64,000 nt of DNA, taken from NCBI GenBank assembly GCA_902363665.1, contig CABJAW010000011.1, positions 1-64,000 of the forward strand, given 5' to 3'. Positions 8,203 to 29,681 of the stretch are shown in pieces (within the stretch, counting starts at the first letter, position 1; the number at the start of each line of letters is the position of its first letter). The stretch comes from Lachnospiraceae bacterium. Lineage in GTDB: Bacteria > Bacillota > Clostridia > Lachnospirales > Lachnospiraceae. Below the pieces are notes generated by a model. It worked only from the letters and a program-made list of their open reading frames with translations. It had not been told where the DNA came from and made no database searches. Made by a program: the position numbers and the translations under genes.

Positions 8203-8221
8203 AGCAAAGGAATGAGCAGAC

Positions 8222-10576: not shown

Positions 10577-10580
10577 AAGA

Positions 10581-12401: not shown

Positions 12402-12413
12402 GAGAGGTAGAGC

Positions 12414-13871: not shown

Positions 13872-13907
13872 CAGATAAGATGGGAAATGCTGGATGGAGG
13901 AAAAAAG

Positions 13908-15371: not shown

Positions 15372-15737
15372 ATGGGAGACATATTAAGGGTATTTGTAAT
15401 TGTTGCAGGGGTATACATGTTTCTGAAAGCGATTTTGTCTCTGGCAAAGAGGAAGATGACGGAGCCGTTTTGTCTGGCATGGGCGTTCCTGGCTGCGCTG
15501 ATGGTGCTGGCCGGAATCCTGTTAAATCCGGTTCAGCTGGATAATTTCATCAGCTTCAGAGGTCTGATTCTGGTGATTCTTGTTATCTCCGGCCTGCTCT
15601 GGGACCTGTGGTTTATCAGCTCGCAGGTATCCATTTTGAAGCGAAGAAATCAGGAGCTTGCCATGCAGATTTCTTTGCTGAACCAGGACTGCGAGAAGAT
15701 ACTGAAGGAACTGGAAGAACTGAGGAAAGAGCAATGA
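15372..15737 (+). CDS. DUF2304-like small membrane protein with C-terminal coiled coil
   Basis: The 121-residue product has three hydrophobic segments (about 4-20, 30-50 and 62-82) and then a coiled coil of about 38 residues (KRRNQELAMQISLLNQDCEKILKE). This topology is typical of DUF2304 proteins, which accompany glycosyltransferases in polysaccharide clusters; the biochemical role is not known. Its TGA overlaps the ATG of the next gene (ATGA), so the two are translationally coupled. Confidence 0.6.
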   Translation: MGDILRVFVIVAGVYMFLKAILSLAKRKMTEPFCLAWAFLAALMVLAGILLNPVQLDNFISFRGLILVILVISGLLWDLWFISSQVSILKRRNQELAMQISLLNQDCEKILKELEELRKEQ

Positions 15738-16996
15738 AAAAGGTACTGTTTGTCATCAATACACTGGGTGGTGCAGGCGCGGAGCGGGCATTGCTGGAAC
15801 TTTTAAAACGGTTTTCGCCGCAGCAGTATGAAATTGATTTGTATGTACTTCTGGATCAGGGAGAGCTGATCCATGAGGTGCCGGAATATGTGAATCTGGT
15901 GAACGGGGAGTATTTTGCAGAATCGGTTCTGTCTGCGGAGGGCAAAAAAAAGCTTGGAAAAACGGTCTGGCATCGTCTCTGGCTGCATATGGCACTTGCA
16001 AAGAATTTCATTTATCTGCTCAGGAATCTGGGCGCCATGATGAAAAAGAAACAGATACATACGGACAAGCTGCTGTGGAGGATCATGTCTGACAGTGGGA
16101 TGGTCCTGAAAAAGCACTACGATATGGCGATTGCCTATCTGGAAGGCGGAGCGACTTATTTTGTGCACGACCATGTCGATGCGGATCAGAAATTCACGTT
16201 CCTGCACGTGGATTACAGCTATGCGGGCTACACAAGAGCACTGGATCAGGCTTGTTATCCGGATTTTGACCGTATCTTTACGGTATCTGATGAGGTGAAA
16301 GAGAGTTTTTTGCAGGTCTACCCGGAATGTGCGGGGAAAACGGCAGTATTTCACAATCTGCTGGACAGAGAAGAAATAAAGAGAAAGGCAGAACTGCCGG
16401 GCGGCTTTTCGGATGGATATGAAGGAAAGAGGATCCTGACGGTAGGCAGGCTGACTGCACAGAAGGCATATGAGACGGCGATAGATGCCATGAAGCTCCT
16501 GAAAGATGAGGGGGAACAGGTGCGATGGTACGTGCTGGGGGAAGGGGAACTTCACAGAAAACTCCGGCAAAGAATAGAGGAGCTGGGACTTCAGGAGGAT
16601 TTCCTGCTGCTCGGGGCAGAGGAAAATCCGTACCCGTATTACCGGCAGTGTGATCTGTATGTGCATGCCACAAGGTTTGAGGGGAAGAGCATTGCGGTAC
16701 AGGAGGCTCAGATTCTCGGCTGTACCGTTTTGGTATCGGACTGCAGCGGCAACCGGGAGCAGGTAAGAGACGGCATAGATGGGGCACTGTGCCAGCTGGA
16801 TGCAGGGGATATCAGTGAAAAGATAAAGGAGCTTTTGCATAACAAAGAGCTCTGTGAGAAATATGGAAGAAATGCAACGAAAAAAATGGATCAGGAAGAA
16901 GAAAAAGGTTTGGAACTTTTCGAAATAAATGAGGGAAAGAGTGAGACGGATGAAAAAGCAGAAAGAAATTTTGATCATTATTCCTGCGTACAATGA
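15734..16996 (+). CDS. GT4-family glycosyltransferase
   Basis: The 420-residue product is a retaining GT-B transferase. It starts MKKVLFVINTLGGAGAERALLEL, the donor/acceptor loop typical of GT4. It then has ILTVGRLTAQKAYETAIDAM, FLLLGAEENPYPYYRQCDLYVHATRFEGKSIAVQEA with the EX7E motif, and TVLVSDCSGNREQV. The start is fixed by the ATGA overlap with the previous gene. Its last 47 bp overlap the following GT2 gene. The sugar substrate cannot be told from sequence. It probably adds side groups or makes the lipid-linked start of the polymer. Confidence 0.85.
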   Translation: MKKVLFVINTLGGAGAERALLELLKRFSPQQYEIDLYVLLDQGELIHEVPEYVNLVNGEYFAESVLSAEGKKKLGKTVWHRLWLHMALAKNFIYLLRNLGAMMKKKQIHTDKLLWRIMSDSGMVLKKHYDMAIAYLEGGATYFVHDHVDADQKFTFLHVDYSYAGYTRALDQACYPDFDRIFTVSDEVKESFLQVYPECAGKTAVFHNLLDREEIKRKAELPGGFSDGYEGKRILTVGRLTAQKAYETAIDAMKLLKDEGEQVRWYVLGEGELHRKLRQRIEELGLQEDFLLLGAEENPYPYYRQCDLYVHATRFEGKSIAVQEAQILGCTVLVSDCSGNREQVRDGIDGALCQLDAGDISEKIKELLHNKELCEKYGRNATKKMDQEEEKGLELFEINEGKSETDEKAERNFDHYSCVQ

Positions 16997-17735
16997 AGAA
17001 AAAACGATCGTGCCATTACTGGAACAGCTGGAACAGCCGGAGATCGCACAGATGGCAGACGTCCTGATTATGAATGATGCGTCCCTGGATGCAACGAATT
17101 ATATCGCGAAGAAGCGGCATCATGAGGTAGTGACCCATGTATTTAATCTTGGTTATGGAAGCGGGCTGCAGCTTGGATATAAATATGCGGTTCGGAAAGG
17201 TTACCAGTATGTGATTCAGATGGATGCGGACGGGCAGCATGATGTCTGCAATATTCCGAAGATTTATGAGGCGCTGAAAACAAAGGACAGCGACGGAAAT
17301 TATCCGGATATCGTACTTGGCTCCAGATTTCTGGAGGGAAGCAGCAGCTTTCCTGTATCTGCGGCAAAAAAGATCGCATTCACATGGTTCCGCACCATCA
17401 TCCGCCTGGGAACGGGAGCACATATCACGGACCCGACCACAGGACTGCAGGGGTTGAACTGGAGAACTTTTCTGTTTTATTCCATGTATAATCATTATGA
17501 TGATAAATATCCGGATGCAAATATGATCATGCAGATGCTGCTTCTCGGATTTCGGGTGGAGGAGATCCCGGCAGTGATGCATGCAAGGACAAACGGTGTG
17601 AGTATGCATTCCGGGCTGAAGCCGATCCTGTATATGTTTCGGATGACATTCTCGATTATTGCGGTGTGGATCAGGGAAAGAATACTGAAACTAGATGTGG
17701 AAAGCGTAAATGAGCTGGATAAATATGAAAATTAA
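16950..17735 (+). CDS. GT2-family glycosyltransferase (polyprenyl-phosphate sugar synthase type)
   Basis: The 261-residue product has the GT-A fold motifs IIPAYNEEKTI, MNDASLDAT, QMDADGQHD (DXD metal site) and GSRFLEG, with one hydrophobic stretch near the C-terminus. This form resembles dolichol-phosphate mannose synthases that load a sugar onto a polyprenyl phosphate for GT-C enzymes. That would fit the large polytopic protein at 8222. It overlaps the gene before (47 bp) and after (26 bp), so it is tightly coupled within the operon. Confidence 0.83.
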   Translation: MKKQKEILIIIPAYNEEKTIVPLLEQLEQPEIAQMADVLIMNDASLDATNYIAKKRHHEVVTHVFNLGYGSGLQLGYKYAVRKGYQYVIQMDADGQHDVCNIPKIYEALKTKDSDGNYPDIVLGSRFLEGSSSFPVSAAKKIAFTWFRTIIRLGTGAHITDPTTGLQGLNWRTFLFYSMYNHYDDKYPDANMIMQMLLLGFRVEEIPAVMHARTNGVSMHSGLKPILYMFRMTFSIIAVWIRERILKLDVESVNELDKYEN

Positions 17736-19029
17736 TCAAAAGTGGGAATGGATGCCGGAAGAACTGCAGGAAAGCACAGAAGAACTGGAAAATCCGGCAA
17801 GGGGATGGTATGAAATCTATACGTTCCGGGCAGAGGACGGCATCCATCCACAGGAACTGAGATGGAGTCTGAGGGAAGGTGAGACTCTGGCGCTGGTATT
17901 GATCGATCTGGGGGCATACCGGGACCGGGCGCTGGGGCATGAGGCACTGGAAAATATCAGAAGCATTCTCAGTTTTTTTATGCAGTACGAGAAGGATGTC
18001 ATACTTCGCCCGGTGTATGATACAGAGGGGAAAGGACGCGAGCGGGAGCCGGAAGCGTTTGATACTGTGCTGATGCATGCCGGGCAGATCGGAGAGGTGC
18101 TGCAGCAGACAGAGCACAGCGTCTGTATCTTTCAGGGAATGCTGGTTGGCAGCTGGGGAGAGATGCATGATTCCAGGTATCTGACACCGGAGCATTTGCG
18201 GAAGCTGTACGATACGATAAAACCCTGCCTTGACCGTGAAATTTATCTGGCAGTGCGCACCCCGGCGATCTGGAGAACCCTGACGGATGAGGTGCAGTTT
18301 GGGCAGGGCAGCTTTGAGAAGACAGCTGTGTTTGATGATGGGATCCTGGGTTCCATGACGCATCTTGGAACGTTTGGAACGATGACAAGAGACGCGGCAG
18401 GCTGGGAACAGGCATGGACAAGAAAAGAGGAGCTGGAGTTTCTAAGACGTATTACAAAAAATACACCCTGCGGCGGCGAGGCAGTACTTGGGATGGACGG
18501 ACGGCAGGAAAGTACCGGATTTGTGGTAAGTGAACTGAAGACCATGCATCTGACTTATCTGAACTGCGCACATGACAGGAAGGTGCTGGATGACTGGAAG
18601 CAGATAAGCTGGAGCACAGAAGGGGTGTGGAAGGAACACAGTCTGTATGATTATGTCGGAAGTCATCTCGGATACCGCCTGATCGTGCGAAGTGTGGAAA
18701 TGAAAGCGTGTCTGTGTGGAAAATGGGAGATGGAACTGGAGATCGAAAATACGGGATTTGCTGCGCCCTTTCAGGAGATGGAATTATTTCTTGTATTGGA
18801 GGGAGAAGATGGCACGTGGGAATTTCCGGTTGAGTTTGATGTCAGGCAATGTGCTCCGGGGGAAAGAAAAAAAATTGTGCAGTGTTTTCGGACAGGCCGC
18901 GTCAATCGAATGAAGGGGCACCTGTTCCTGAAACTGCGAAGAAAAAAGGATGGGCGGCCCATCCGGTTCGCAAATGGAAAAAAAGCAGACCGCCTTTTGC
19001 TTGGCAGTCTGCAGATGAGAGACAGGTGA
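17710..19029 (+). CDS. DUF4874/DUF4832 protein, probably cytoplasmic copy
   Basis: The 439-residue product has no signal peptide. It begins with the DUF4874-like ENPARGWYEIYTF block and contains LRPVYDTEGKGRE, CIFQGMLVGSWGEMHDSRY and AVRTPAIWRTL. It ends in a DUF4832-like beta-rich part (HLGYRLIVRSVEMK, LEIENTGFAAPF). These proteins look like TIM barrels plus a beta sandwich and may act on or bind polysaccharide, but no activity is established that I know of. The gene after it on the opposite strand is a paralogue with a membrane anchor. A start at 17725 is also possible. Last gene of the operon. Confidence 0.7.
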   Translation: MSWINMKINQKWEWMPEELQESTEELENPARGWYEIYTFRAEDGIHPQELRWSLREGETLALVLIDLGAYRDRALGHEALENIRSILSFFMQYEKDVILRPVYDTEGKGREREPEAFDTVLMHAGQIGEVLQQTEHSVCIFQGMLVGSWGEMHDSRYLTPEHLRKLYDTIKPCLDREIYLAVRTPAIWRTLTDEVQFGQGSFEKTAVFDDGILGSMTHLGTFGTMTRDAAGWEQAWTRKEELEFLRRITKNTPCGGEAVLGMDGRQESTGFVVSELKTMHLTYLNCAHDRKVLDDWKQISWSTEGVWKEHSLYDYVGSHLGYRLIVRSVEMKACLCGKWEMELEIENTGFAAPFQEMELFLVLEGEDGTWEFPVEFDVRQCAPGERKKIVQCFRTGRVNRMKGHLFLKLRRKKDGRPIRFANGKKADRLLLGSLQMRDR

Positions 19030-19031
19030 CG

Positions 19032-20468
19032 TTATTCAATTGTCAGGTCAGCAACAGGAACAGTGTCTTCCTCTTCTGATCCACTGTTGGCAAAATGGAT
19101 GGAATTTCCTGTGTAGGGATCTTCCATACACAGCGCAATAGAATAGGTGCCTTTTTCCCAGGAACGGATATCAAGACGGATCTGAAAGGAAGAGAAGTCA
19201 TTGCTGGCAATCTTGCGGTTATCGATATCCGTTTCCAGTTCCGTTTCTTCACCAGAGTCAAGATCAGTGATGATCAGTTTGGTATCAAACTTACGGTAAG
19301 AAGAAGAAAATCCAGTGTTTTCAATATTAATATAAAGAATAGCTGCGTCATCAGCAAAGGAATGGAAATCCAGACTGGATTCTTTCATGACATAACGGTA
19401 TCCCAGGTGGGCACTGATATAGTCATATCCGGTGCTGCCGGAAAATACATCGTCACCGGAACAGGTGGAGTTCTTCCATTTGTTGAGCACAGCAGCATCA
19501 TGCTCAGAATTGAGGTAAGATACATGCATCTGAGCAAGGTCTTCAATGGCATTTTCAAGATCATTGTAGACATTATCTACAGTAACTTCACCGCCGTTAG
19601 GCACATACTGGCATAGCTTATACTGATAGAGGAGCTCCTCGCTGCGGGTTCCTTTGGCATCAAGTGCATTGCTGGATTTCAGTGGCTTATCTCCATAGGT
19701 ACCCAGATCATAGACGGAACCCAGCATGCCGTCATTGAAAAGGCCGAGTCTGGATTCAAGAGATCCGTCATATGCGTTGGAACTGGACAGTGGTTTTTTG
19801 GTGCGCAGAATGCCGCGTAACTGACCGGGAGTACGCACAGCCAGAAAAATATCAGGAGAAATACATTTATCCAGTGTTTCTGCAATCTGTCGGATCTGAT
19901 TAATGTCATTATAATTTGAGTTGTTCATTTCACCGTTGTTACCGGTGAGTGTTCCCTGCAAAATGTAGACACAGTCAGAATAGTCATTGACCACAGAGGC
20001 AACCTGCTGAATATGATTTTTGATTCGATAGAATGCAGTCGGCTCTGAAGTCAGGGCCTGTCCCTCCCAGTCATACAGAAAGCGAAGAATGACCTGTTTT
20101 TTGCCGCTGCTACATGCCTCTAAGAGAGTACGCAGCTGTTTCAGAGCGGCAGAACTGATACGGGTCTCGGCATAGTTTTTCAGATTGATCTCCAGAAGCA
20201 GCAGAGGGTAGGGATTGGATGCGCAGTTCTTTTTGTACCACTTTGCCGCGTCGGAAGCGGTTTGTTCATCCGACAAAGTGTAGCCGTTCATCTGATAGAA
20301 CCCGCAGTATGGATTATCCAGGATCTGAGCCGATTCAGGTGCGGGATTGGAGGCATAGCTGATATGCAGGTTTCGTCCTGAGATAAAATGAGAAAGAACC
20401 AGAACGGAGAGCACAATACAAAAAAGAAAGAATACAATGTGCAGAAGAAACGATGATTTTTTTTCCAT
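19032..20468 (-). CDS. DUF4874/DUF4832 protein with N-terminal membrane anchor
   Basis: The 478-residue product starts with KSSFLLHIVFFLFCIVLSVLVLS, an uncleaved anchor or signal peptide, then a DNPYCGFYQMNGYTLSDEQ block, VILRFLYDWEGQ, YILQGTLTGNNGEMNNSNY, AVRTPGQLRGIL and a C-terminal HLGYRYVMKESSLD with NIENTGFSSSYRKFD. It matches the neighbouring plus-strand protein block by block, so the two are paralogues placed tail to tail three bases apart. One copy is outside the membrane and the other apparently inside. AGGAG precedes the ATG. Confidence 0.72.
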   Translation of the reverse strand: MEKKSSFLLHIVFFLFCIVLSVLVLSHFISGRNLHISYASNPAPESAQILDNPYCGFYQMNGYTLSDEQTASDAAKWYKKNCASNPYPLLLLEINLKNYAETRISSAALKQLRTLLEACSSGKKQVILRFLYDWEGQALTSEPTAFYRIKNHIQQVASVVNDYSDCVYILQGTLTGNNGEMNNSNYNDINQIRQIAETLDKCISPDIFLAVRTPGQLRGILRTKKPLSSSNAYDGSLESRLGLFNDGMLGSVYDLGTYGDKPLKSSNALDAKGTRSEELLYQYKLCQYVPNGGEVTVDNVYNDLENAIEDLAQMHVSYLNSEHDAAVLNKWKNSTCSGDDVFSGSTGYDYISAHLGYRYVMKESSLDFHSFADDAAILYINIENTGFSSSYRKFDTKLIITDLDSGEETELETDIDNRKIASNDFSSFQIRLDIRSWEKGTYSIALCMEDPYTGNSIHFANSGSEEEDTVPVADLTIE

Positions 20469-20555
20469 AAATAAATGCTCCTAAAAAAGTATCTATACAT
20501 ACAAAAGCGAATTCACTATAATGTATGATAACGAAAAAGAAAGGATTTGTGAAGA

Positions 20556-22100
20556 GTGAAACAGAAATCCAGGACAGAATATTCTGTCAGAAATACAACA
20601 GTGGCATTTGCGGCACAGACGGCAGCCATACTGATGGGATTTTTTACCAGGGTGGTATTTACCCATACGTTAAGCGAAGGATATGTGGGAATCAACGGAT
20701 TGTTTACGGATATTTTAAATATACTTTCCCTGTCTGAGCTGGGCGTGGGAACTGCCATTACGTATGCGCTGTATACTCCGATTGCGAGAGGAGACATTCA
20801 GAAGCAGCAGATCCTGATGCGGATGTTCCGCACCTTTTACCGGATCACAGCCGGTTTTGTGCTGACGGCCGGTCTGTGCCTGATCCCGTTTCTGGATGTC
20901 CTGATGAAGGATCGCCCGGATGTGGATCATCTGATCTGGATTTATCTGCTGTATCTGCTGAATTCGGTCGTGTCTTATTTGCTGATCTACAAGAAAACAC
21001 TGATTGACGCACATCAGATGAATTACGTTACGGTACTGTATCATAACGGGTTTCTGGTCATACAGGATCTGCTGCAGATCGCGATTTTGCTGATCACCGG
21101 CAATTTTATCCTGTTTCTGCTGGCAGCAGTGATCTGCACCATCACAGGAAATATCTGCATGTCCAGACAGGCAGACAAAATGTTTCCGTATCTGAAAGAG
21201 CCGTGCAGGGAACACCTGCCGCAGGAAGAGCGTCAGGATATCGTGAAAAATGTAAAAGCCATGCTGATGCATAAGCTGGGAAATGTAGTCGTAAACAATA
21301 CGGACAATCTGCTGATTTCCAGCTTCGTAGGTGTGGTAACAGCAGGAATCTATTCCAATTATTTTCTGATCATCGGATCCGTAAGGCAGGTCTTCGATCA
21401 GGCAATGCTTGGAGTGGCCGCCAGCGTGGGCAATCTGGGGGCAACCGAAGAAAAGGAGAGGATCGGACAGGTTTTTGACCAGCTGTTTTTCATCGGATAC
21501 TGGATGTTCGGATTTGCGGGCATCTGCCTTTTAGAACTGCTGAATCCTTTTGTGGAGCTGGCCTTTGGAAAAAAATACCTGTTCCAAAAGGAGATTGTGC
21601 TGATCCTCTGTGTGAACTTCTTTATTAATGGAATGCGCAGGGCAGTGCTGATTTTCAAAGAATCGATGGGGCTGTTCTGGTATGACCGCTATAAAGCAGT
21701 GGCGGAAGCGGTACTGAATCTGGTGATTTCGATTCTGCTGGTTACCAGCTTTGGCGTGGCAGGTGTATTTGCCGGCACATTTGCAAGCACAGTTCTGACC
21801 TCAGTGTGGGTGGAGCCGTATGTGATCTACAAATACCGCTTACAGAAGCCGGTATCCGGGTTTTTCAAAATGTATGCGGGGTATCTGGCAGTCATGGCAT
21901 CTGTGTGGGTCGTAACGGAAGGAATCTGCTGCCTGGTATCCGGCGGACCGTTTCTGCTGATGGCGCAGAGAATGGTGATCTGCCTGCTGGTGCCGAACCT
22001 GCTGCTGTGGATCGTTTACCGGAAGACGGGAAAATGCCAGAGACTGATGGCACTGCTGAAAAGAATCGCAGGAAAAGTGCTGACGGGAAATAAGGGGTGA
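20556..22100 (+). CDS. Wzx-type oligosaccharide flippase
   Basis: The 514-residue product has about 14 membrane segments and the polysaccharide-biosynthesis MOP signatures RNTTVAFAAQTAAILMGFFTRVVFTHTLSEGYVGINGLF at the N-terminus and NNTDNLLISSFVGV in the middle. Wzx proteins flip undecaprenyl-linked oligosaccharides to the outer face. GTG is the likely start. The operon also has PelG, so this locus carries two MOP-family exporters, possibly for two different glycans. A GT2 gene follows after six bases. Confidence 0.85.
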   Translation: MKQKSRTEYSVRNTTVAFAAQTAAILMGFFTRVVFTHTLSEGYVGINGLFTDILNILSLSELGVGTAITYALYTPIARGDIQKQQILMRMFRTFYRITAGFVLTAGLCLIPFLDVLMKDRPDVDHLIWIYLLYLLNSVVSYLLIYKKTLIDAHQMNYVTVLYHNGFLVIQDLLQIAILLITGNFILFLLAAVICTITGNICMSRQADKMFPYLKEPCREHLPQEERQDIVKNVKAMLMHKLGNVVVNNTDNLLISSFVGVVTAGIYSNYFLIIGSVRQVFDQAMLGVAASVGNLGATEEKERIGQVFDQLFFIGYWMFGFAGICLLELLNPFVELAFGKKYLFQKEIVLILCVNFFINGMRRAVLIFKESMGLFWYDRYKAVAEAVLNLVISILLVTSFGVAGVFAGTFASTVLTSVWVEPYVIYKYRLQKPVSGFFKMYAGYLAVMASVWVVTEGICCLVSGGPFLLMAQRMVICLLVPNLLLWIVYRKTGKCQRLMALLKRIAGKVLTGNKG

Positions 22101-22106
22101 CGGAAG

Positions 22107-23186
22107 ATGGAAGCTCAGACAAAAAAAGTTTCGGTGATCATTCCCGTTTATAATGCAGAAAAATATATACGGAAAACGCTGGACAGTGTGCTGGCGCAAA
22201 GCTTCCGGAACCGGGAAATCCTTCTGGTGGAAAATGGCTGTGAGGATCAAAGCACAGAGATTCTCCGGGAATATAAAGAAAAATACGACGAAATAAGGCT
22301 GATAAGCTGTGCTGACCGCGGTGCAGGAGCTGCAAGAAATACGGGCCTGGAGCAGGCGGCCGGGGAATATATCCTGTTTGTGGATGCGGATGATTATCTT
22401 CCGGATACCGGGATTCTGGAAAAATATGTGAAAGCAGCAGAGCAGACAGGCGTGGATGTGGTGATCAGCAACTACGCAAGACTGTGGGAAGAACGGGTAC
22501 TTCCGGCCGTGAAGCACAGCACATTTTCTGTGTACAGCCCTTCCTCCGAAGAATTTCGTTTTCAGGGATTTTTTGGAACGGGAACACTGTCTTATGTGTG
22601 GGGCAGACTTTACCGCAGATCGTTTCTTGCACAGAATCAGATCACGTTTGCAGATCTGACGTATGCGGAGGACAAGCTGTTCAATATGGAGTGCTATATC
22701 TGTAAAGCGAGATATCTGTTTCTGGAAGATGTCGGATATATCTACCGGAGAAATAAGGACTCCATTTCCTGGCAGTATCATGAAGATGCAACGGAAAACT
22801 GGCTGAAGATGGCGCATTTACTGTCGGAGCGGCTGGAGGAAAAACAGAGTCTGGAATATGAGAACATGATCTGGTATACGGTCTTTTTTGCTGTATTTTT
22901 TGACAGCAAAATGGAATACGTACAGCGCAGGAAATCTGTTTTTTCCATAAGAAAAATCCTGAAAAGATATCACCGGGATGAGCTTGGCAGGGAAGCATTC
23001 AAAAAGCTTTCAGACAGGAAACATGCACTTCCGATACAGCAGATGGCCTGGCGTGCTGCCATTCGCGTCTTTTCTTTTGGGATGGCAAGACGGTGGTATA
23101 TGGCGTTGGCTGTGGGAATCAGATTTTTGATCGAGTCAAAAATCGATGAGCGCTTTTCTGATACCGGAATAAAAGAAGAACAGTGA
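22107..23186 (+). CDS. GT2-family glycosyltransferase
   Basis: The 359-residue product has the classic GT2 (GT-A) start KVSVIIPVYNAEKYIRKTLDS, LVENGCEDQSTEI, GAGAARNTGLEQAAGEYILF and VDADDYLP (DXD). The C-terminal part is basic, with one short hydrophobic segment. It follows the flippase by six bases and shares its operon, so it likely builds the oligosaccharide the flippase exports. Its stop codon lies inside a bidirectional terminator hairpin. Confidence 0.85.
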   Translation: MEAQTKKVSVIIPVYNAEKYIRKTLDSVLAQSFRNREILLVENGCEDQSTEILREYKEKYDEIRLISCADRGAGAARNTGLEQAAGEYILFVDADDYLPDTGILEKYVKAAEQTGVDVVISNYARLWEERVLPAVKHSTFSVYSPSSEEFRFQGFFGTGTLSYVWGRLYRRSFLAQNQITFADLTYAEDKLFNMECYICKARYLFLEDVGYIYRRNKDSISWQYHEDATENWLKMAHLLSERLEEKQSLEYENMIWYTVFFAVFFDSKMEYVQRRKSVFSIRKILKRYHRDELGREAFKKLSDRKHALPIQQMAWRAAIRVFSFGMARRWYMALAVGIRFLIESKIDERFSDTGIKEEQ

Positions 23187-23206
23187 AGCCTAACGCTCAC
23201 TGTTCT
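23177..23206. terminator. Bidirectional terminator overlapping two convergent stop codons
   Basis: AGAACAGTGA (23177-23186) pairs perfectly with TCACTGTTCT (23197-23206). A/T-rich runs lie on both sides (AATAAAAG and AAATATTTTTAT). The stop codons of the GT2 gene and of the opposing nucleotidyltransferase gene both fall inside the hairpin. Confidence 0.75.
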
Positions 23207-24404
23207 CAAATATTTTTATCAGGTGGGTTTTCTGGTTGCTCTTTTTAAAGTCACGCAGCGTCTGAAGAAACGTGGTATTCCTTACGGTATAGGTGTTTTT
23301 CAGAAAACAGAAAAAGGTAACGCCCCAGAGAAACGGCCATAAAACGGGATAATGGCAGGCTTTTGGAAAACGGACCTTCATCTGGGTATGTCCTTCCTTC
23401 AGGCAGGAGGCGAAATTCACTTTCTGATAGGAGCTGCTGCCGACCAGGGAAGACGAGGTGTCAGTGCCCATATCACCGTCTTTCAGGATCTGCTGCACAA
23501 ACTGTTCGCAGTCAGCGTGGCTGTAATGGATTTCGGGATCAATCGTGTCAGACAGTCCCAGATAGATGCGGCAGCTCTCCAGAATGATCTCATAAAGGTG
23601 AAGGATCCTGGATTCCCGGCACCAGGTATGGATCCGGTCAAAATCTATTTCTCCGGCATGGCGGTTCAGATACAGGGTAAAATCACAGAGCAGCCGGATG
23701 CCGAAGCCACTGTACAGATAGTGCTTCAGCATATGGTGGATCTGATAAAATGCATATTCTGTGGGCGGGAGAACGGTGTAGGAATAGCCGCAGATGGTCT
23801 GATGGCAGTGACCGGGGCGGTTGGCAGAAAAAACTTCATCTACGATCTCGTTCGCGCGGGAGTACTGGTACAGTCCGATCACGCGGTAGTGGAGTTCCAG
23901 AAGGAAGCTCCGGCCGGTTTTGGAAAAACGGTACTGATAGGTGATGTGGTGATCGCTGAGCTCTTCCTCTTCCAGATAACCATGGGATGCCAGAATACAC
24001 TTTGCCCTGTCAAAGTCCTCTTTGTCACTGATATAGAGATCGAGATCGCCCAGTTTGCGGTATTCCGGAACCGGATAGCAGTCGGCAAGGCTCAGTCCCT
24101 TCAGCAGATAGCAGGAAATATGCTCTTTTTCCAGCAAAGAGACGGTAGTGTGCGTAAAATGCTCGATCTGGTAATAATTGAGCATCATGTTTTTCGTCTG
24201 CTGCCTGAGGGAAGCATAGCAGTCTGTCCCGTGAAAAAAGGGAAGCAGAAAAGGTGCCGTGCGGTGCTCCTGTGAAAGCACTGCGAGGGCATGTACCTCC
24301 TCCGGACGAATGGTGATGGCGGTGTCAATATTGGCATCGGCATCGGCTGAAGAACAGCAGGCCTGACGGATAACAGATAAATAAGTAGTGTAAACAGATT
24401 CCAT
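23190..24404 (-). CDS. NTP_transf_5-type nucleotidyltransferase family protein
   Basis: This uncharacterised nucleotidyltransferase family is found with PqqD and HPr kinase-like genes in several peptide-modification clusters, for example the paeninodin lasso peptide cluster. The 404-residue product shows the core CYLLKGLSLADCYP with EYRKLGDLDLYI, which gives the acidic pair of the nucleotidyltransferase fold. Further on are LLELHYRV and FYQIHHMLKHYLYSG. No membrane segment stands out, apart from a weakly hydrophobic stretch near residue 350. Here it begins a seven-gene island with PqqD, S26 peptidase, leader-bearing proteins, ABC exporter and kinase. A role in modifying the precursors is inferred from context. 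Confidence 0.75.
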   Translation of the reverse strand: MESVYTTYLSVIRQACCSSADADANIDTAITIRPEEVHALAVLSQEHRTAPFLLPFFHGTDCYASLRQQTKNMMLNYYQIEHFTHTTVSLLEKEHISCYLLKGLSLADCYPVPEYRKLGDLDLYISDKEDFDRAKCILASHGYLEEEELSDHHITYQYRFSKTGRSFLLELHYRVIGLYQYSRANEIVDEVFSANRPGHCHQTICGYSYTVLPPTEYAFYQIHHMLKHYLYSGFGIRLLCDFTLYLNRHAGEIDFDRIHTWCRESRILHLYEIILESCRIYLGLSDTIDPEIHYSHADCEQFVQQILKDGDMGTDTSSSLVGSSSYQKVNFASCLKEGHTQMKVRFPKACHYPVLWPFLWGVTFFCFLKNTYTVRNTTFLQTLRDFKKSNQKTHLIKIFENSER

Positions 24405-24552
24405 AAAAACTCCCGGTTATAGGTGGATAGTCAATTGCTTTGCAAAAAGGTTACGGAAAGTTTCCATTGACAGGCCGCAGGGCAGCTGTGTTCAGGAAAT
24501 ATGGGTAAGTATAACATGGAAGGGCAGAAAAGGAAAGATCAGGTAAGCAGAC

Positions 24553-24582
24553 AGCGAAGCGAATTGCAAACATCCGCTTTGC
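24553..24582 (+). repeat. Dispersed intergenic hairpin repeat, copy 2
   Basis: AGCGAAGCGAATTGC followed by AAACATCCGCTTTGC matches the reverse complement of the 29647-29675 repeat at all but a few positions. It lies in the 216-bp gap between the divergent nucleotidyltransferase and PqqD genes. Confidence 0.6.
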
Positions 24583-24620
24583 ACTGGATTTGAGCAGCAA
24601 CATGGAAAGAGGCAAAACGG

Positions 24621-24884
24621 ATGAAAAAAGCGGATGGCTATGTGATAAAAAAACTGGAGGATGAATACGTTATTCTCCCTTATGGAAAAAGGACAGAAGA
24701 GGTAAATGAGGTAATTACCCTGAGTGAGACTGCAGGCTTTATTTATGAGAAGGCAGATCAGGCAGAGAATATCGCGCAGCTTGCACAGCTGGTCGGAAAA
24801 GAATACGGAGTGGAAGCGTCGGTCGTATATGAGGATGTGGCAGAGGTGGTGAAGACACTGCAGGAGAAAGGGATTCTGCTATAA
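24621..24884 (+). CDS. PqqD-family protein (RiPP recognition element)
   Basis: PqqD-like proteins bind leader peptides and present precursor peptides to modifying enzymes. The 87-residue product has the expected layout: a short beta hairpin (GYVIKKLEDEYVILPYG), a hydrophobic EVITLSETAGFIYEKADQ helix, then a helical end (LAQLVGKEYGVEA, VVKTLQEKGILL) with the winged-helix pattern. AAAGAGG lies eight bases before the ATG. It faces the S26 peptidase gene tail to tail. Together with the N-terminal PqqD domain of the kinase at 28456-29625 there are two recognition elements in this island. Confidence 0.85.
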   Translation: MKKADGYVIKKLEDEYVILPYGKRTEEVNEVITLSETAGFIYEKADQAENIAQLAQLVGKEYGVEASVVYEDVAEVVKTLQEKGILL

Positions 24885-24907
24885 GAAAGCATTGTAAAAC
24901 GGACATT

Positions 24908-25390
24908 TCATGAACGCAGAATGGTGCGAAAAAAAGCCGACAGGTGGAAACAAAGCGGGCGCACCGGCAGAAGAAAGAGCCACAGGGAAGAAAGAAAACG
25001 GTAAAACGGCTGGCGGACGGAGATTTCTTTTCCGTCGCGGACAAAAGCCACCAGCCTTCCGATGACCTGAGACGGACGCAGCGGTCCCTCCACTTCCCGC
25101 TGGTTGTCGCCCACCAGATAAAAACCATTGTCTGTAATGCGGCAGATCCGGTGAAGCACTAAAATACCGGAATCCCGGCGATACAGAACCACATCGTTTT
25201 TTTTGCAGGCGTCTGCGCAGACGGATTCGATCAATGCTTCATCGCGCCCCGGCAGAAACAGTGGGTACATACTGTAGCCCTGCGGGTGGATACGGATGAT
25301 ATTGCCGTCTTTTAAGAGCTGTTCGAGATCGATCTGGCTGCCGGAAGAATCAGGCTGGCTGGTGTGGGATAAATGAGAAGTGTTTTCCAT
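24908..25390 (-). CDS. S24/S26-family (signal peptidase I-like) peptidase
   Basis: The 160-residue product has the serine motif HPQGYSMYP with Ser40 and the second block KKNDVVLYRRDSGILVLHRI. His80 stands where SipW/ER-type signal peptidases have histidine instead of lysine. A hydrophobic segment lies near the C-terminus (WLFLLPVRPLCFHLSAFF) rather than the N-terminus, unlike standard signal peptidase I. The GDNQ motif (YLVGDNQREVEGP) matches the conserved GDN of the S26 family. In this island it is the only visible protease, so removal of the shared leader of the two precursor-like proteins, perhaps after Ala-Ser-Gly, is the natural hypothesis. Confidence 0.8.
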   Translation of the reverse strand: MENTSHLSHTSQPDSSGSQIDLEQLLKDGNIIRIHPQGYSMYPLFLPGRDEALIESVCADACKKNDVVLYRRDSGILVLHRICRITDNGFYLVGDNQREVEGPLRPSQVIGRLVAFVRDGKEISVRQPFYRFLSSLWLFLLPVRPLCFHLSAFFRTILRS

Positions 25391-25600
25391 AGATAAAGCT
25401 CCCTCTGAAAAGTAATGGTGGTGAAATGATATTCAAAATCCCTCCGGCGGTCAAAGTGGATACGGGCAGGTCTTTCTTCACTGTTTTTGCCGGATGCAAA
25501 GGACTTAAGTGCCTCATGTAGAGCAGAGGTATTATAACATTGTACAGGAAAAAGAACAAGAAAAAACAGGATTCGAAAAGAAATTTTGCATTTGAATCAC

Positions 25601-25629
25601 TTGACTTTTTGAGGCCTGATGGATATATT
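25601..25629 (+). promoter_or_regulatory. Sigma-A promoter for the first leader-bearing protein
   Basis: TTGACT (25601-25606), 17-bp spacer, TATATT (25624-25629). It leaves an untranslated leader of about 115 bases before the ATG at 25751. The rest of the 360-bp gap (25391-25600) shows no gene. Confidence 0.7.
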
Positions 25630-25638
25630 AAAAAAGAA

Positions 25639-25703
25639 AAATTACAAAAATTCAGATTTTAAAAGCGAAAAAGGAAATTACAGAAATTCCGATTGTCAAA
25701 GCG
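25639..25703 (+). repeat. Direct repeat in the 5' leader of the first precursor gene (36-bp period)
   Basis: AAATTACAAAAATTCAGATT at the first copy (ending in AAAAGCG at 25667) recurs as AAATTACAGAAATTCCGATT (ending in CAAAGCG at 25703). The second copy leads into a hairpin CAAAGCG/CGCTTTG related to the dispersed repeat. It is transcribed with the gene but lies before the ribosome binding site. Confidence 0.65.
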
Positions 25704-25750
25704 GATCATGGATACTCGCTTTGCGAGCACAGAAACGAGGAGATCTTATT

Positions 25751-26134
25751 ATGAGAGAATATAAAAAACCGGTAGTTACAGTAGACGCAGGACTGGCAGA
25801 GGGAATCTACGCAGCCAGCGGAGCAGCACAGGGCACTTTGAATGTAACCTATTATGGTGTATGGGACAGATGGGGAACAAACGGAGGAAAAGGACTTGCG
25901 ATGGCAAACTGGTCGGGCATTAATGGAACTATTGCCCTTACCATTAATTTTAATGATACAGTAGATCAGATCGAGACAGATGATGCATCCGTACAGACGT
26001 CATGCTCCGGCAATACTGCGACGCTGACTTTTGCAAGCACCGCAAGTAATCCGCTGACGATCGGTATCCATCTGAATCACGGAACCAGCATTGATAATTT
26101 GCGGCTGACAGGATACAGCTATTCTGTAAAATAA
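25751..26134 (+). CDS. Leader-bearing secreted protein, candidate RiPP-like precursor A1
   Basis: This 127-residue protein has an N-terminal leader MREYKKPVVTVDAGLAEG followed by IYAASG, sharing 16 of 24 positions with the protein at 26191-26532. After the leader comes about 103 residues rich in N, T, G and S with alternating hydrophobics (LNVTYYGVWDRW, NGTIALTINFND, NTATLTFAST). This is a beta-sandwich-like pattern that vaguely resembles small carbohydrate-binding modules. There is one cysteine. It has no classical signal peptide. GAGGAG lies nine bases before the ATG at 25751; an in-frame upstream start at 25619 overlaps the promoter and is rejected. Its neighbours (PqqD, S26 peptidase, ABC exporter, kinase) suggest it is modified, cleaved and exported. 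Confidence 0.75.
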   Translation: MREYKKPVVTVDAGLAEGIYAASGAAQGTLNVTYYGVWDRWGTNGGKGLAMANWSGINGTIALTINFNDTVDQIETDDASVQTSCSGNTATLTFASTASNPLTIGIHLNHGTSIDNLRLTGYSYSVK

Positions 26135-26152
26135 GAATGACGTGAGCGTTGC

Positions 26153-26192
26153 AAAAAAAGACACAGAGAATTGACCTCTGTGTCTTTTTTTT
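26153..26192. terminator. Bidirectional terminator between the two leader-bearing genes
   Basis: AAAAAAAGACACAGAG (26153-26168) and CTCTGTGTC with a run of eight T (to 26192) enclose the loop AATTGAC. It serves both convergent genes; the minus-strand stop codon touches its end. Confidence 0.85.
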
Positions 26193-26532
26193 ACATATTC
26201 CAGTCAGTGACAGGATCGTCAGGACCGTATCCTTTCTTTTCCCAGCTTGGTTTACGGTTGCCATTGTCGACATCGTAGCTTCCGGCGTGTCCGGAATCTT
26301 CATAGTGCGTCAGAAGTCCACAGCCGTTAGCCGTATTAGCCGGGCAGCCAAGACAGGCAAACTGCTGTTTATAGCCTCTTGTACCGCCGTTCCAGCTTGA
26401 ATAATCCGGTGCCTGCCAGTTTCCTTTCATGTAGCGGCTGTCACATTTCAGGCCATTGCTTCCGCTTGCCAGATAAATACCCTCTGCCAGATCGGAATCA
26501 ATTGTAATCAATGGCTTTTTATAGGTGTTCAT
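26191..26532 (-). CDS. Leader-bearing secreted protein, candidate RiPP-like precursor A2
   Basis: This 113-residue protein begins MNTYKKPLITIDSDLAEG followed by IYLASG, the same leader as A1, but the rest is unrelated. The remainder is rich in G, N, D, W and Y with four cysteines (30, 60, 63, 71; motif CLGCPANTANGC), ending GYGPDDPVTDWNM. The ATG at 26532 follows AAAGGGGG. It has its own promoter (26559-26586) and no classical signal peptide. It is convergent with A1. The cysteine pattern could form disulfides, bind metal or be a substrate for modification; none can be chosen from sequence alone. Confidence 0.75.
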   Translation of the reverse strand: MNTYKKPLITIDSDLAEGIYLASGSNGLKCDSRYMKGNWQAPDYSSWNGGTRGYKQQFACLGCPANTANGCGLLTHYEDSGHAGSYDVDNGNRKPSWEKKGYGPDDPVTDWNM

Positions 26533-26558
26533 GTAGTATCCCCCTTTCATCTATTTTG

Positions 26559-26586
26559 ATTATAACGCGTTGAAAAGAAACGTCAA
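26559..26586 (-). promoter_or_regulatory. Sigma-A promoter for leader-bearing protein A2
   Basis: On the minus strand TTGACG (26586-26581), 16-bp spacer and TATAAT (26564-26559), about 27 bp before the start codon. Only a short untranslated leader remains, unlike the long leader of A1. Confidence 0.75.
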
Positions 26587-26640
26587 TACATATGCGATAA
26601 ATAGTTGTAATGCAATGAACCGGATCAGGCAGGTCTCTGC

Positions 26641-26670
26641 TTCGCCTGCGAAGAGCAATAAGCAGGCGAA
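26641..26670. repeat. Hairpin after the ABC exporter gene
   Basis: TTCGCCTGC (26641-26649) pairs perfectly with GCAGGCGAA (26662-26670) around a 12-nt loop. There is no T-run on either strand, so if it ends the exporter transcript it is not a standard terminator. Confidence 0.5.
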
Positions 26671-26689
26671 ACGGATTGCTGAGTATAGA

Positions 26690-28459
26690 TCAGAATTCAT
26701 TCATCATTTTCCGGATTTCTTCTTCACTCAGCACCTCACACTTCTTATCTCGTATCGCATAGACCCTCGTGCAGATGTTTAATACGGTAGGCCGGTGGGT
26801 GGTCACAATGCACGTCCGCGGATAGGTGTCCTGCATGATATTGCGCAGAACCTTTCGCTCGGTTGCCACATCCAGAGCAGAGGTGGCTTCATCCAGCAGC
26901 AGGATCGGGGATTTGCGGAGCAGTGCCCGGGCAATGGAGAGGCGCTGCGCCTGTCCTTCGGAAAAACCGCCGCCGCGTTCCTTGATCTCACTGTAGATGC
27001 CGTCCGGCAGCTTTTCCACAAAGTCCCAGGCGCAGGACTGCTTCATGACTTCGATGATTTCCTCATCGGTGGCATCCGGCTTTACATTTCGCATATTGTC
27101 GGCGATCGTGCCGGAAAACATGGTATTTCCCTGCGGTACATAAGAGAATAATTTTCTGGTGGAAGGGGAAAGCTCCAGATTGTGTTCCTGCTGCGCTCCG
27201 GCGCAGACATGAAAAGCTCCTGCCTGTGGTGTCAGAAGAGAAAGGATCAGGCGGAGCATGGTCGTTTTTCCTTCACCGGACGGGCCCACCAGCGCGACGA
27301 TCTCATGAGGATAAGCTTCCAGAGAGGCACCCTCGAAAACGGCAGTGCCATTATGGTAGGAATAACTCAGGTCCTTCAGGTTCAGCCCGATTCCTTCTCC
27401 CCGGTACTGCTTTTCAAATTGCTGCACCGCAGAATCCTGACTGTAATCTTCCTGTGGCATTTCCACAATGTCCATCAGACGTCCTGCGGAAATCATCAGG
27501 GAAATAGCGGATGGGACGAGGCTGACCAGAGAGTTTACCGCGCTGGTCAGTGTGCCGGACAGCGAGAGGAACATGGTCATGGTTCCGTAACTGATCGCAT
27601 TGCTCCACACACGGTAGATGCCCCATCCATAACAGCTGTAGGATACGATGAAGCTGATGATGGACATCAGAACAGCCGTCACCATGGACATTTTCTGAAA
27701 GTCGAGCTGCATATGAATGTAATCATCCTGGAGACTTTTCAGCTTGACGGTATAAAAATGGATCAGGTCAAACGCCTTGATCGTCTGGATATTGGAAAAC
27801 GCTTCCTGGTTGAATCCATACAGCCTGGCATTCATGGCTGCGCTGCGCTCATTGTTTTTTGTCATTCTCCGCAATAGAGGGCGGGAAAGAAGTGCACTGA
27901 ACGGCATGCCAAGGAGTGCGAACAGGGCAAAGGTTGGATCGTAATACAGCACGATTGCCAGTGCGCTGATAAAGCGGAACGTGTAAATAATCAGGTTCGG
28001 GATCCAGTTCAGAATACCGCTTGAAATATTGGAAGCATCGGAGCTCCAGCGGGTGACCAAGTCACCGGTATGATAATCAGTTAAAGATTCCCAGTCCGTC
28101 ACCAGCATTTTCGCAAAAATTTCATTTTTGATCTCCGTATCCACCTTCAGGCTGATAAAAGTAGAGGCATAGCTGGAAGCCTGGGAAACCAGGATATTGG
28201 CAATGGAAAAACCGATCATGGCGGCAAAGGTACTAAGAAGCTGCCCGGTCTGGTGGCCGGTGATGATATCCACCAGATCTTTGGAAATCAGGCTGGAAAT
28301 CAGGGAGACACCGGTGCCCATGAGCCCAAGCAGGGTATACAGCACCATTGCTTTCCAGTAGCGGTGTCCATACTGATAGATCCATACGGTCTGCGTCCAC
28401 ATTTTTTTGAAGGTGCCCTGTTTCAGGTGTTTTTTGATCAGCAGAATCTTTTCTTTCAT
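26690..28459 (-). CDS. ABC exporter, fused permease and ATPase, without peptidase domain
   Basis: The 589-residue half-transporter has an N-terminal type IV membrane domain (about 30-330) and a nucleotide-binding domain with Walker A GPSGEGKTT, signature FSEGQAQRL, Walker B ILLLDEATSALD and the switch TTHRPT. It lacks the C39 peptidase domain of bacteriocin exporters, so leader removal must be done elsewhere, plausibly by the S26 peptidase at 24908. Its start overlaps the stop of the upstream PqqD-kinase gene by four bases (ATGA), so the two are translationally coupled. Exported cargo is inferred to be the A1 and A2 proteins. Confidence 0.85.
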   Translation of the reverse strand: MKEKILLIKKHLKQGTFKKMWTQTVWIYQYGHRYWKAMVLYTLLGLMGTGVSLISSLISKDLVDIITGHQTGQLLSTFAAMIGFSIANILVSQASSYASTFISLKVDTEIKNEIFAKMLVTDWESLTDYHTGDLVTRWSSDASNISSGILNWIPNLIIYTFRFISALAIVLYYDPTFALFALLGMPFSALLSRPLLRRMTKNNERSAAMNARLYGFNQEAFSNIQTIKAFDLIHFYTVKLKSLQDDYIHMQLDFQKMSMVTAVLMSIISFIVSYSCYGWGIYRVWSNAISYGTMTMFLSLSGTLTSAVNSLVSLVPSAISLMISAGRLMDIVEMPQEDYSQDSAVQQFEKQYRGEGIGLNLKDLSYSYHNGTAVFEGASLEAYPHEIVALVGPSGEGKTTMLRLILSLLTPQAGAFHVCAGAQQEHNLELSPSTRKLFSYVPQGNTMFSGTIADNMRNVKPDATDEEIIEVMKQSCAWDFVEKLPDGIYSEIKERGGGFSEGQAQRLSIARALLRKSPILLLDEATSALDVATERKVLRNIMQDTYPRTCIVTTHRPTVLNICTRVYAIRDKKCEVLSEEEIRKMMNEF

Positions 28460-29625
28460 CGAAGCGCCTCCTGACGGTCGATCTCGTCTTTGGCGGCCTG
28501 TGCCGCAGAAGGATGCATGGTGCAGGAAAGATGAAATACAGGAACTTTATCCGCGATTTCGGATGCGAAAGACAGATTTCGGCTTAGCAGTTCCTCCGTC
28601 CAGGCAGGTGAGATCATACGCTGCATGACACGCAGGATTTTATCGGATGCGGGAAGTTCCTCGGTCTGTTCTCGTTCCTGGCTGCGGCCGAGAAGCACGA
28701 TGCCGCCAAGCGGATACTGTTTTGTGGTAAAAATACCGGAGGTTCCACACCACGGAATGCCATAGACAAAAAGCTGTCCATTTTCAATACCAATCAGATT
28801 CAGATCTCCGTTCAGATATGGTGTCTGAAACAGTTTGTGCCACAGAGCCGTGTGTGTGGTTTTCCCCATGCCGGAGTGGCCGGAAAAGAGCCATGCTTTT
28901 TCGCGGTACAAAATGGACGCCGAATGAAGGGCAAATCGGCCGTTTTTCTGCGCAAGATACAGAAAGAACAGCCGGATCGCGTGAAACAGATCGTCAGATA
29001 CTTCGCGGGTATGCACCGGCTTGCAGTAAATACGTACATAGCCGCCATCCAAAGTCATATGCGCTTCATAAATGTCCGGCATCGTCGGAAAAAGAACCAC
29101 ATAGCGGTCAGAATTTTGAAAAATGGTTATCTCTTTGTTTTGCAGCAGCACCTGTCCATAGGAACGGCTGTCCGGAGGTACGGTCAGAAGATCGATGCGC
29201 TGGTCCGCAGCCATTGCGGAAGAGTCTGCGCGAAAGGCATCAAAAGCGGCAGCCGTGAGATCAGCCGGATCGTACAGATGCAGGGAGAGACCGGCAATGG
29301 AAAGACGGCAAGAAGGTTTCTCCCGGACCGGACACAGGGATTCGGCCAGCATTCCATACTGGAGAAGCTGCATAGCCCATCCCTTTACATCCTCAAGAAC
29401 CGAAGAAAACTCCGCTTCACCAAGATTATAATGAGCGATCAGATGAGATGTCAGGTCTTCTAAAGAAGCGTTTCCTGCGTGCTGCAGCGCGTTCCACAGA
29501 AAAACACTGGTTTCATTCATCACAGTCCCCTTTTTCTGATCTGCAATCTGCTGCCCATATGGGAGCAGATAAAAGGTATTTTTTATTTGCCGGAGCGTGT
29601 ATCCGGTCTGACATTTTAGTAACAT
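28456..29625 (-). CDS. PqqD domain fused to an HPr kinase-like kinase
   Basis: The 389-residue product has a PqqD-like N-terminal domain (about 8-95; LRQIKNTFYLLPYG, VMNETSVFLWNAL, LQYGMLAE). An HPr kinase/PEP carboxykinase-like domain follows, with Walker A GHSGMGKTT at 249-257, LHSASI at 233-238 and YLNGDLNLI with GIPWCGTSG downstream. HPr kinase-like enzymes in lasso peptide clusters (ThcoK, PadeK) phosphorylate the peptide. Here the recognition element is fused to the kinase, so leader-guided phosphorylation of A1 and/or A2 is likely. There is no HPr-type regulatory domain. It overlaps the ABC exporter gene by four bases. Confidence 0.82.
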   Translation of the reverse strand: MLLKCQTGYTLRQIKNTFYLLPYGQQIADQKKGTVMNETSVFLWNALQHAGNASLEDLTSHLIAHYNLGEAEFSSVLEDVKGWAMQLLQYGMLAESLCPVREKPSCRLSIAGLSLHLYDPADLTAAAFDAFRADSSAMAADQRIDLLTVPPDSRSYGQVLLQNKEITIFQNSDRYVVLFPTMPDIYEAHMTLDGGYVRIYCKPVHTREVSDDLFHAIRLFFLYLAQKNGRFALHSASILYREKAWLFSGHSGMGKTTHTALWHKLFQTPYLNGDLNLIGIENGQLFVYGIPWCGTSGIFTTKQYPLGGIVLLGRSQEREQTEELPASDKILRVMQRMISPAWTEELLSRNLSFASEIADKVPVFHLSCTMHPSAAQAAKDEIDRQEALR

Positions 29626-29646: not shown

Positions 29647-29675
29647 GCAAAGCGGATATTCGCAATCCGCTTCGC
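29647..29675 (+). repeat. Dispersed intergenic hairpin repeat, best copy
   Basis: GCAAAGCGGAT (29647-29657), loop ATTCGCA, ATCCGCTTCGC (29665-29675): an 11-bp stem with one G-T pair. Related copies lie at 2086, 24553 and 38412, with half copies near 25697, 35651 and 60168. Confidence 0.7.
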
Positions 29676-29681
29676 TACTCC

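Follow-up and report, generated by a model that had tools for sequence, protein, structure and literature searches.

Positions 23190–29625 of a 64,000-nucleotide stretch of Lachnospiraceae DNA (contig CABJAW010000011.1, positions 1 to 64,000; hereafter the window) carry an island of seven adjacent genes in which, as we moderately favor, a lasso-type set of recognition, kinase, nucleotidyltransferase and export proteins has been turned to folded proteins of a Pel-type matrix. The genes encode a nucleotidyltransferase-like protein of the NTP_transf_5 family, a free-standing PqqD protein, an S26-type peptidase, two small proteins (A1 and A2), an ATP-binding cassette (ABC) exporter and a PqqD-HPrK-like fusion kinase (DHK; Table 1). 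Reading of the sequence and its open frames places them where a preliminary description of the window had put them, and Pfam and NCBIfam searches bear out the composition of the set that it listed. That description overlooked a lasso motif and a serine at the spacing of the lasso kinase BsfK within the leader, the Pel-type context of the locus, and sister cassettes with radical SAM genes. Families were searched in 19 window proteins and the other window genes were read by eye; the conservation tests were made in related genomes.

DHK possesses a PqqD domain at residues 34–93, followed by a P-loop kinase domain. The best match of the fusion profile in the PDB is TbiB1, a RiPP recognition element (RRE; RiPP, ribosomally synthesized and post-translationally modified peptide) of a lasso system (E 3e-4, across the PqqD part). 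The kinase half passes the cut-off of no curated Pfam or NCBIfam family, HprK_rel_B giving E 0.015; it can be aligned with kinase-like genes from two sources, the lasso-like cluster L121 and the radical SAM cassettes. His234, the P-loop Lys255 and Asp274 are invariant in all 12 aligned kinases, and the first of two adjacent aspartates in the L121 kinases is a glycine in all six aligned fusions. The spacing from His234 to Lys255 is 21 residues, as it also is between H148 and K169 of BsfK in the available text of its description (PMC10368454). Kinase relatives number 1767 at E ≤ 1e-20 (best 120 of 1767 listed).

Both A1 and A2 start with the same kind of 24-residue leader, in agreement with the common leader first noted. 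The motif Y..P(6-9)E[GSN].[YF]..[SC]G fits 64 of the 66 distinct leader-bearing frames collected from the loci; those that fail are L091 of genome G112 and L123, which is cut by the end of its locus. Tyrosine and the Ser/Cys position are 19 residues apart in 63 of the 64 leaders (62 Ser, one Cys) and 18 apart (Ser) in one. Two positions after the proline a Val, Ile or Leu is found in 62/64 frames, completing a lasso-like YxxPx[V/I] motif, after which the leader ends in Ala-Ser-Gly. No other hydroxyl residue is conserved, the next best leader position reaching 14/64 and the best of the first twelve core residues 22/64. These 64–66 frames stem from related genomes and are not independent, and some others look broken (L104, L113). 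Among divergent cases, the Tyr–Ser distance is 20 in G236 and 19 in G228, and the G112 substrate has no YxxP. Neither A1 nor A2 displays a Sec-type hydrophobic signal: the top 19-residue hydropathy within the first 30 residues is 1.09 and 0.59, respectively.

According to the available text of PMC10368454, lasso leaders carry YxxPxL at positions −17 to −12, and BsfK phosphorylates Ser3 of the core, sped by the RRE protein BsfB1. Since the spacing of 19 equals that from Tyr(−17) to Ser3 of the BsfK substrate, Ser23 is the predicted kinase site. This parallel was noticed after the fact, and by this analogy phosphorylation of Ser23 appears evenly balanced between likely and unlikely. The accessible part of a rumen survey lists several Lachnospiraceae lasso leaders with a related W..P form and others without it (PMC7533575).

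The Ser40 and His80 residues first assigned to the S26-type peptidase are confirmed by alignment: together with Asp95 they are invariant in 7/7 sequences (the window protein and six relatives). The protein scores 31.9 bits against TIGR02228, below the model cut-off of 51.85, and yields no match to solved structures at E ≤ 0.1. Since its most hydrophobic stretch by hydropathy is the C-terminus, the catalytic part is probably cytosolic. ABC_membrane (residues 38–308) and ABC_tran (376–527) are the sole Pfam families over cut-off in the exporter, and neither Pfam nor NCBIfam detects an N-terminal C39 peptidase domain, as the preliminary description had it. For the NTP_transf_5 protein we propose a role similar to that of PsmN, a nucleotidyltransferase which, as far as the available text of PMC9266682 goes, is needed for the hexose on the phospho-Ser of pseudomycoidin, where a host enzyme may add the sugar.

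The leader is the only part common to the substrates, whose cores are mutually unrelated domains of 55–277 residues (63 frames; the longest is a frame fusion in L104). Their median length of 103 residues is close to the value of about 100 estimated earlier. The structure model of A1 has a pLDDT (predicted local distance difference test) of 83–95 by blocks beyond residue 30, and its Foldseek list is headed by cellulose/chitin-binding domains; adaptin and toxin rows in the same list had low TM scores and were taken as common beta-sandwich matches. Pfam gives no CBM_2 match for A1 and one for the 23 substrates scanned (the L001 substrate, 8.4e-6); weak matches of substrates to PilS and Big_8 were not used. 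Judging by these sequences and models, some substrates probably resemble cellulose/chitin-binding modules and are sugar-binding. A2, for which we take the ATG at 26532 as the start and not the 26550 start of a longer frame, has a weak model (pLDDT 64) and no Foldseek match, and we claim no fold for it. At E ≤ 1, A1 or its leader has 2097 relatives (best 120 of 2097 listed) and A2 has 231 (best 120 of 231 listed). In L104 (contig 141 of G011), an A2-type leader with the beginning of its core continues in frame into the start of an apparent lipoprotein gene, probably a remnant.

Among 299 Lachnospiraceae genomes, the fusion kinase was counted at E < 1e-100 in 16 and the A2/leader profile in 17, with 15 genomes having both (Fisher 3e-22, kinship ignored). 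The sixteenth fusion genome, G112, has a divergent leader gene beside its kinase (L091), and G228 is also part of the system (L127), although its kinase, at 4.9e-59, keeps it out of the 16 at this threshold. All 17 genomes of the A2 scan have a kinase match: near full length in 14, cut in G007, in two pieces with a stop in G014 and partial in G016. Together with 15 genomes having an A2/leader match or a strong kinase, these 17 (L017 by a fragment) make up 32 system genomes, compared below with 20 negatives that have no kinase match and no A2/leader match. The S26 peptidase occurs in 30/32 system genomes versus 0/20 negatives, the exporter (E ≤ 1e-100) in 31/32 versus 0/20, in pieces in G008 and weak in G236, and NTP_transf_5 (E ≤ 1e-5) in 30/32 versus 2/20, or 29 versus 2 over cut-off. 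The leader is detected in 30/32 versus 0/20 at E ≤ 1e-4 and in 31/32 versus 0/20 at E ≤ 0.1, an enrichment that is partly circular because the 32 genomes were chosen by A2, leader or kinase.

The genes also lie together. Distances were counted in 30 genomes, leaving out G162, G236, the broken exporter of G008 and a leader match of G002 on contig C11 (E 0.039). Kinase and S26 peptidase share a contig in 24/30 genomes and are less than 1 kb apart in 21 of these 24; for kinase and exporter the figures are 25/30 and, at less than 5 kb, 22/25. Within 5 kb of a system gene lie 48 of 62 leaders (66 matches less three of G162 and the one on C11 of G002), and 27/30 genomes have such a leader. Some system genes are on other contigs. 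The preliminary description had proposed to look for the set in relatives, and named as counter-evidence a set not conserved together or A1 and A2 homologues without the enzymes; because the genes are kept together, this counter-evidence is not encountered in most genomes. The exceptions are G112, which has no S26 match and whose substrate lacks YxxP, G236, where the system is split and divergent, and G162 (a 1.6 Mb assembly), in which three leader proteins were found and the kinase, S26 peptidase, exporter and NTP_transf_5 were not. The G162 leader proteins (L110, L111) have a different core, of VKKYS type. In a scan of the phylum with the kinase profile, scoring at most four candidates per genome, 4/398 genomes matched at E ≤ 1e-40: the centre genome and three with kinases that match from about position 110 onward only, without the PqqD part. 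The system thus looks confined to Lachnospiraceae in this sample.

The island adjoins a Pel-type operon, for a polysaccharide of biofilm type, linked to it by further glycan genes. Pfam matches in the operon include PelG (PF16933, 3.8e-150), DUF3492 (1.9e-74, with glycosyltransferase domains), DUF2194 (3.1e-16) and an epimerase domain (1.1e-11) in a protein that seems to be of the extended PelD type; L128 contains relatives of all six proteins, arranged in the same order. The flippase-like protein of the linking region was named by eye, without a Pfam match, and has relatives in several loci. PelG is present in 30/32 system genomes versus 2/20 negatives. On the scale of the family it occurs in 52/299 genomes, 15/16 with the fusion versus 37/283 others (p 9e-12, kinship ignored). 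Where PelG and the kinase or exporter share a contig, 6.0–16.7 kb separate them in 19/19 genomes; in 11 genomes PelG is on a separate contig, which is uninformative for distance. In L127 (G228) a single strand carries the S26 peptidase, kinase, a GT2 protein, the exporter, a leader substrate, NTP_transf_5, the flippase-like protein, further glycan genes (by eye) and PelG. Because the island lies within a larger Pel-type exopolysaccharide locus, we regard matrix or surface proteins as the candidate substrates, and a functional tie of the island to the Pel glycan is likely. In L128 (G051), pel genes and others are followed on the same strand by PqqD, S26, HPrK-like kinase and ABC genes, with no recognized leader substrate.

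Available text on the phosphorylated or glycosylated lasso clusters (paeninodin, pseudomycoidin, bsf; PMC9266682, PMC10368454) shows that they likewise combine a PqqD-type RRE, a kinase, a nucleotidyltransferase, an ABC exporter and a YxxPxL-type leader, and that the bsf kinase targets Ser3, as far from the leader tyrosine as Ser23 is in the island. Unlike these clusters, the island has an S26 peptidase instead of a transglutaminase-like protease, its RRE is fused to the kinase, and it lies in a Pel-type glycan locus, with folded domains of about 100 residues as its cores. The RRE and the YxxPx[L/V/I] leader of lasso systems are present, as is a RiPP-like arrangement of one conserved leader preceding varied cores next to an RRE; a short threadable core is not, A1 being modeled as a beta-sandwich. 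The absence of lasso protease and cyclase asserted in the preliminary description holds in part. The protease (PF13471) exceeds the cut-off in 1/32 system genomes: in G112 it belongs to a separate lasso-like cluster located on a different contig. Among the 19 window proteins scanned, Pfam yielded no match for either protease or cyclase, PF00733 (cyclase) not having been searched genome-wide. Because the protease is absent and the cores are too long and folded, with the cyclase checked in those 19 proteins, the island is not a lasso cluster; by analogy, the system would resemble the front half of a phosphorylated lasso pathway in its operation. The separate cluster of G112 (L121, contig 2) includes a lasso-type protease and two NTP_transf_5 proteins by family search and an ABC protein by profile; reading by eye adds PqqD and two genes each of cyclase-like and kinase-like type.

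The radical SAM cassettes (L100, L101, L102 and L129; L124–L126 in part) share with the island the HPrK-like kinase and S26 peptidase and mostly PqqD, ABC and NTP_transf_5 genes, and their peptides, where seen, also have a [Y/W]xxP start. They differ in the radical SAM gene (by eye), in short Cys peptides (...ANEYVAAC..., for instance) and in a kinase without PqqD domain. All but L102 encode a short peptide with this start and an ANEYVAAC-type or FENVF-type leader, possibly representing an undescribed peptide class. With the Gram-positive pelDEADAFG cluster, as presented in the available text of PMC7112168, the window shares PelF, PelG, an epimerase-domain protein as in extended PelD and DUF4832 neighbors; relative to that cluster the leader-guided protein arm is an addition. 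In the same text, Whitfield et al. place the Roseburia pel genes within a larger capsule/teichoic-type cluster and mention DUF4832 neighbors in other cases, and PqqD has no occurrence in the main text of PMC7112168 or of PMC7112194. Exporters with a C39 peptidase (PCAT/AMS), acting on double-Gly leaders, likewise combine leader-guided ABC export with leader removal; unlike them, the island exporter has no C39 domain, the S26 peptidase is a separate protein and the leader ends in Ala-Ser-Gly. In our searches of open-licence literature, which excludes most subscription papers and bioRxiv preprints, no paper appeared to describe the gene set.

We hypothesize that the YxxPx[V/I] portion of the leader is the docking site of the PqqD domains, whereupon the fused kinase would phosphorylate Ser23, 19 residues past the tyrosine. 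To this phosphate the NTP_transf_5 protein may attach a sugar or nucleotide, as reported for PsmN on pseudomycoidin, the end modification perhaps being a P-linked sugar; we regard this addition as a tentative and rather doubtful step. Leader cleavage near Ser23 would fall to the S26 peptidase, acting either cytosolically or at the membrane, and the small domain would leave through the ABC exporter, to serve the matrix or surface glycan of the adjoining locus as a carbohydrate-binding or structural protein. Our confidence falls stepwise along this chain, from binding through phosphorylation, addition and cleavage to export, while leader-guided export as such is very probable. A further extension, protein–polysaccharide conjugation, appears improbable enough to be mentioned as a speculation: the Ser23 phosphate would become a sugar phosphodiester, S26 cleavage would leave this residue free at the new N-terminus or close to it, and through it the domain would be joined to the Pel-type polymer or displayed there.

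The position of Ser23 at the leader–core boundary means that it could be lost with the leader, and the first twelve core residues hold no conserved hydroxyl. Both points would suit a plain export cassette of leader, RRE, S26 peptidase and ABC exporter, in which the kinase phosphorylates only the discarded leader as a gate or timing device, or is a chaperone-like ATPase, and the proteins leave unmodified; the missing first Asp of the kinase motif points the same way. However, three residues (the His, the P-loop Lys and one Asp) do not vary among the 12 aligned kinases, and NTP_transf_5, which would be idle in such a cassette, tracks the system in 30/32 genomes, so that we consider this explanation unlikely, albeit the most serious competitor of our proposal.

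The combination of an RRE with leader-directed ABC export is typical of antimicrobial peptides, and A2 is rich in Cys and well conserved in its core, which might suggest folded bacteriocins or toxins directed against competitors. Several unrelated core types under one leader, sugar-binding-like folds among the substrates and the close link to PelG make this highly improbable, and no immunity-like gene was noticed on reading the loci, none having been searched for. Glycan loci also collect cargo, and the island could be a mere passenger of a variable capsule or exopolysaccharide region, functionally unconnected with the Pel glycan: 37 of the 52 PelG genomes have no strong fusion kinase, and some leader genes are located elsewhere. 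Against this, PelG stays within 6–17 kb in all 19 testable genomes despite differing gene order, only 1/16 fusion genomes is without it, and L127 forms a one-strand array; we judge a passenger role improbable as well, and prefer leader-guided export of proteins belonging to the Pel-type matrix.

Table 1. Features of the island and its surroundings in the window.
Feature	Position	Strand	Evidence
Stealth-family protein, precedes Pel operon	4040..5074	+	Stealth_CR2 9.9e-47, CR1, CR3, CR4
Pel-type operon: epimerase-domain protein, 302 aa and 784 aa proteins, DUF2194 protein, PelF-like (DUF3492), PelG	5120..15353	+	Pfam
Linking glycan genes: two glycosyltransferases, two DUF4832/DUF4874 proteins, flippase-like protein, GT2	15608..23186	.	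Pfam
NTP_transf_5 nucleotidyltransferase-like protein, 404 aa	23190..24404	-	PF14907 E 2.7e-34
Free-standing PqqD (RRE-like) protein, 87 aa	24621..24884	+	PF05402 E 1.1e-14; lasso PqqD models match below cut-off
S26-type peptidase, 160 aa, Ser40/His80/Asp95	24908..25390	-	TIGR02228 E 1e-7, below cut-off; residues invariant 7/7
Substrate A1, 127 aa, 24-residue leader and predicted beta-sandwich domain	25751..26134	+	ATG behind GAGGAG; structure model
A1 leader (Y4, P7, V9, E17-G18, Ser23-Gly24)	25751..25822	+	Leader statistics
Terminator-like hairpin between convergent A1 and A2	26153..26191	.	16-bp perfect inverted repeat; -22.4 kcal/mol, z -4.3
Substrate A2, 113 aa, leader and conserved four-Cys domain	26191..26532	-	Alignment; low-confidence model
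A2 leader, motif as in A1	26461..26532	-	Alignment, leader statistics
ABC exporter, membrane and ATPase domains, no C39 peptidase	26690..28459	-	Pfam; 63-69% identity to 9 relatives
PqqD-HPrK-like fusion kinase (DHK)	28456..29625	-	PqqD 7.3e-6; overlaps exporter start by 4 bases

Several other features of the window were recorded. The Stealth-family protein presumably has a role in sugar-phosphate transfer. A partly palindromic intergenic element of 28–30 bases occurs at 24553–24582, 25697–25724 and 29647–29676, these three copies being within the island. It was considered as a system-specific DNA operator and rejected: because a fourth copy lies near 2084 and none was found at ≤7 mismatches in the other loci examined, it looks like a local dispersed repeat. 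A defense function of the island found no support (PADLOC was not searched). Between about 40000 and 55500, a bacterial microcompartment operon, with genes for shell proteins and an aldehyde dehydrogenase among others, was recognized by eye, no family search having been made.

If our proposal is true, RiPP-type leader guidance would extend from peptides to folded proteins, and the Pel-type loci of Lachnospiraceae would gain a dedicated protein arm that may carry a post-translational mark. The proposal singles out Ser23 and the 19-residue spacing as testable features, and provides context for the large and mostly unnamed families of A2, of A1 and its leader, and of the kinase relatives.

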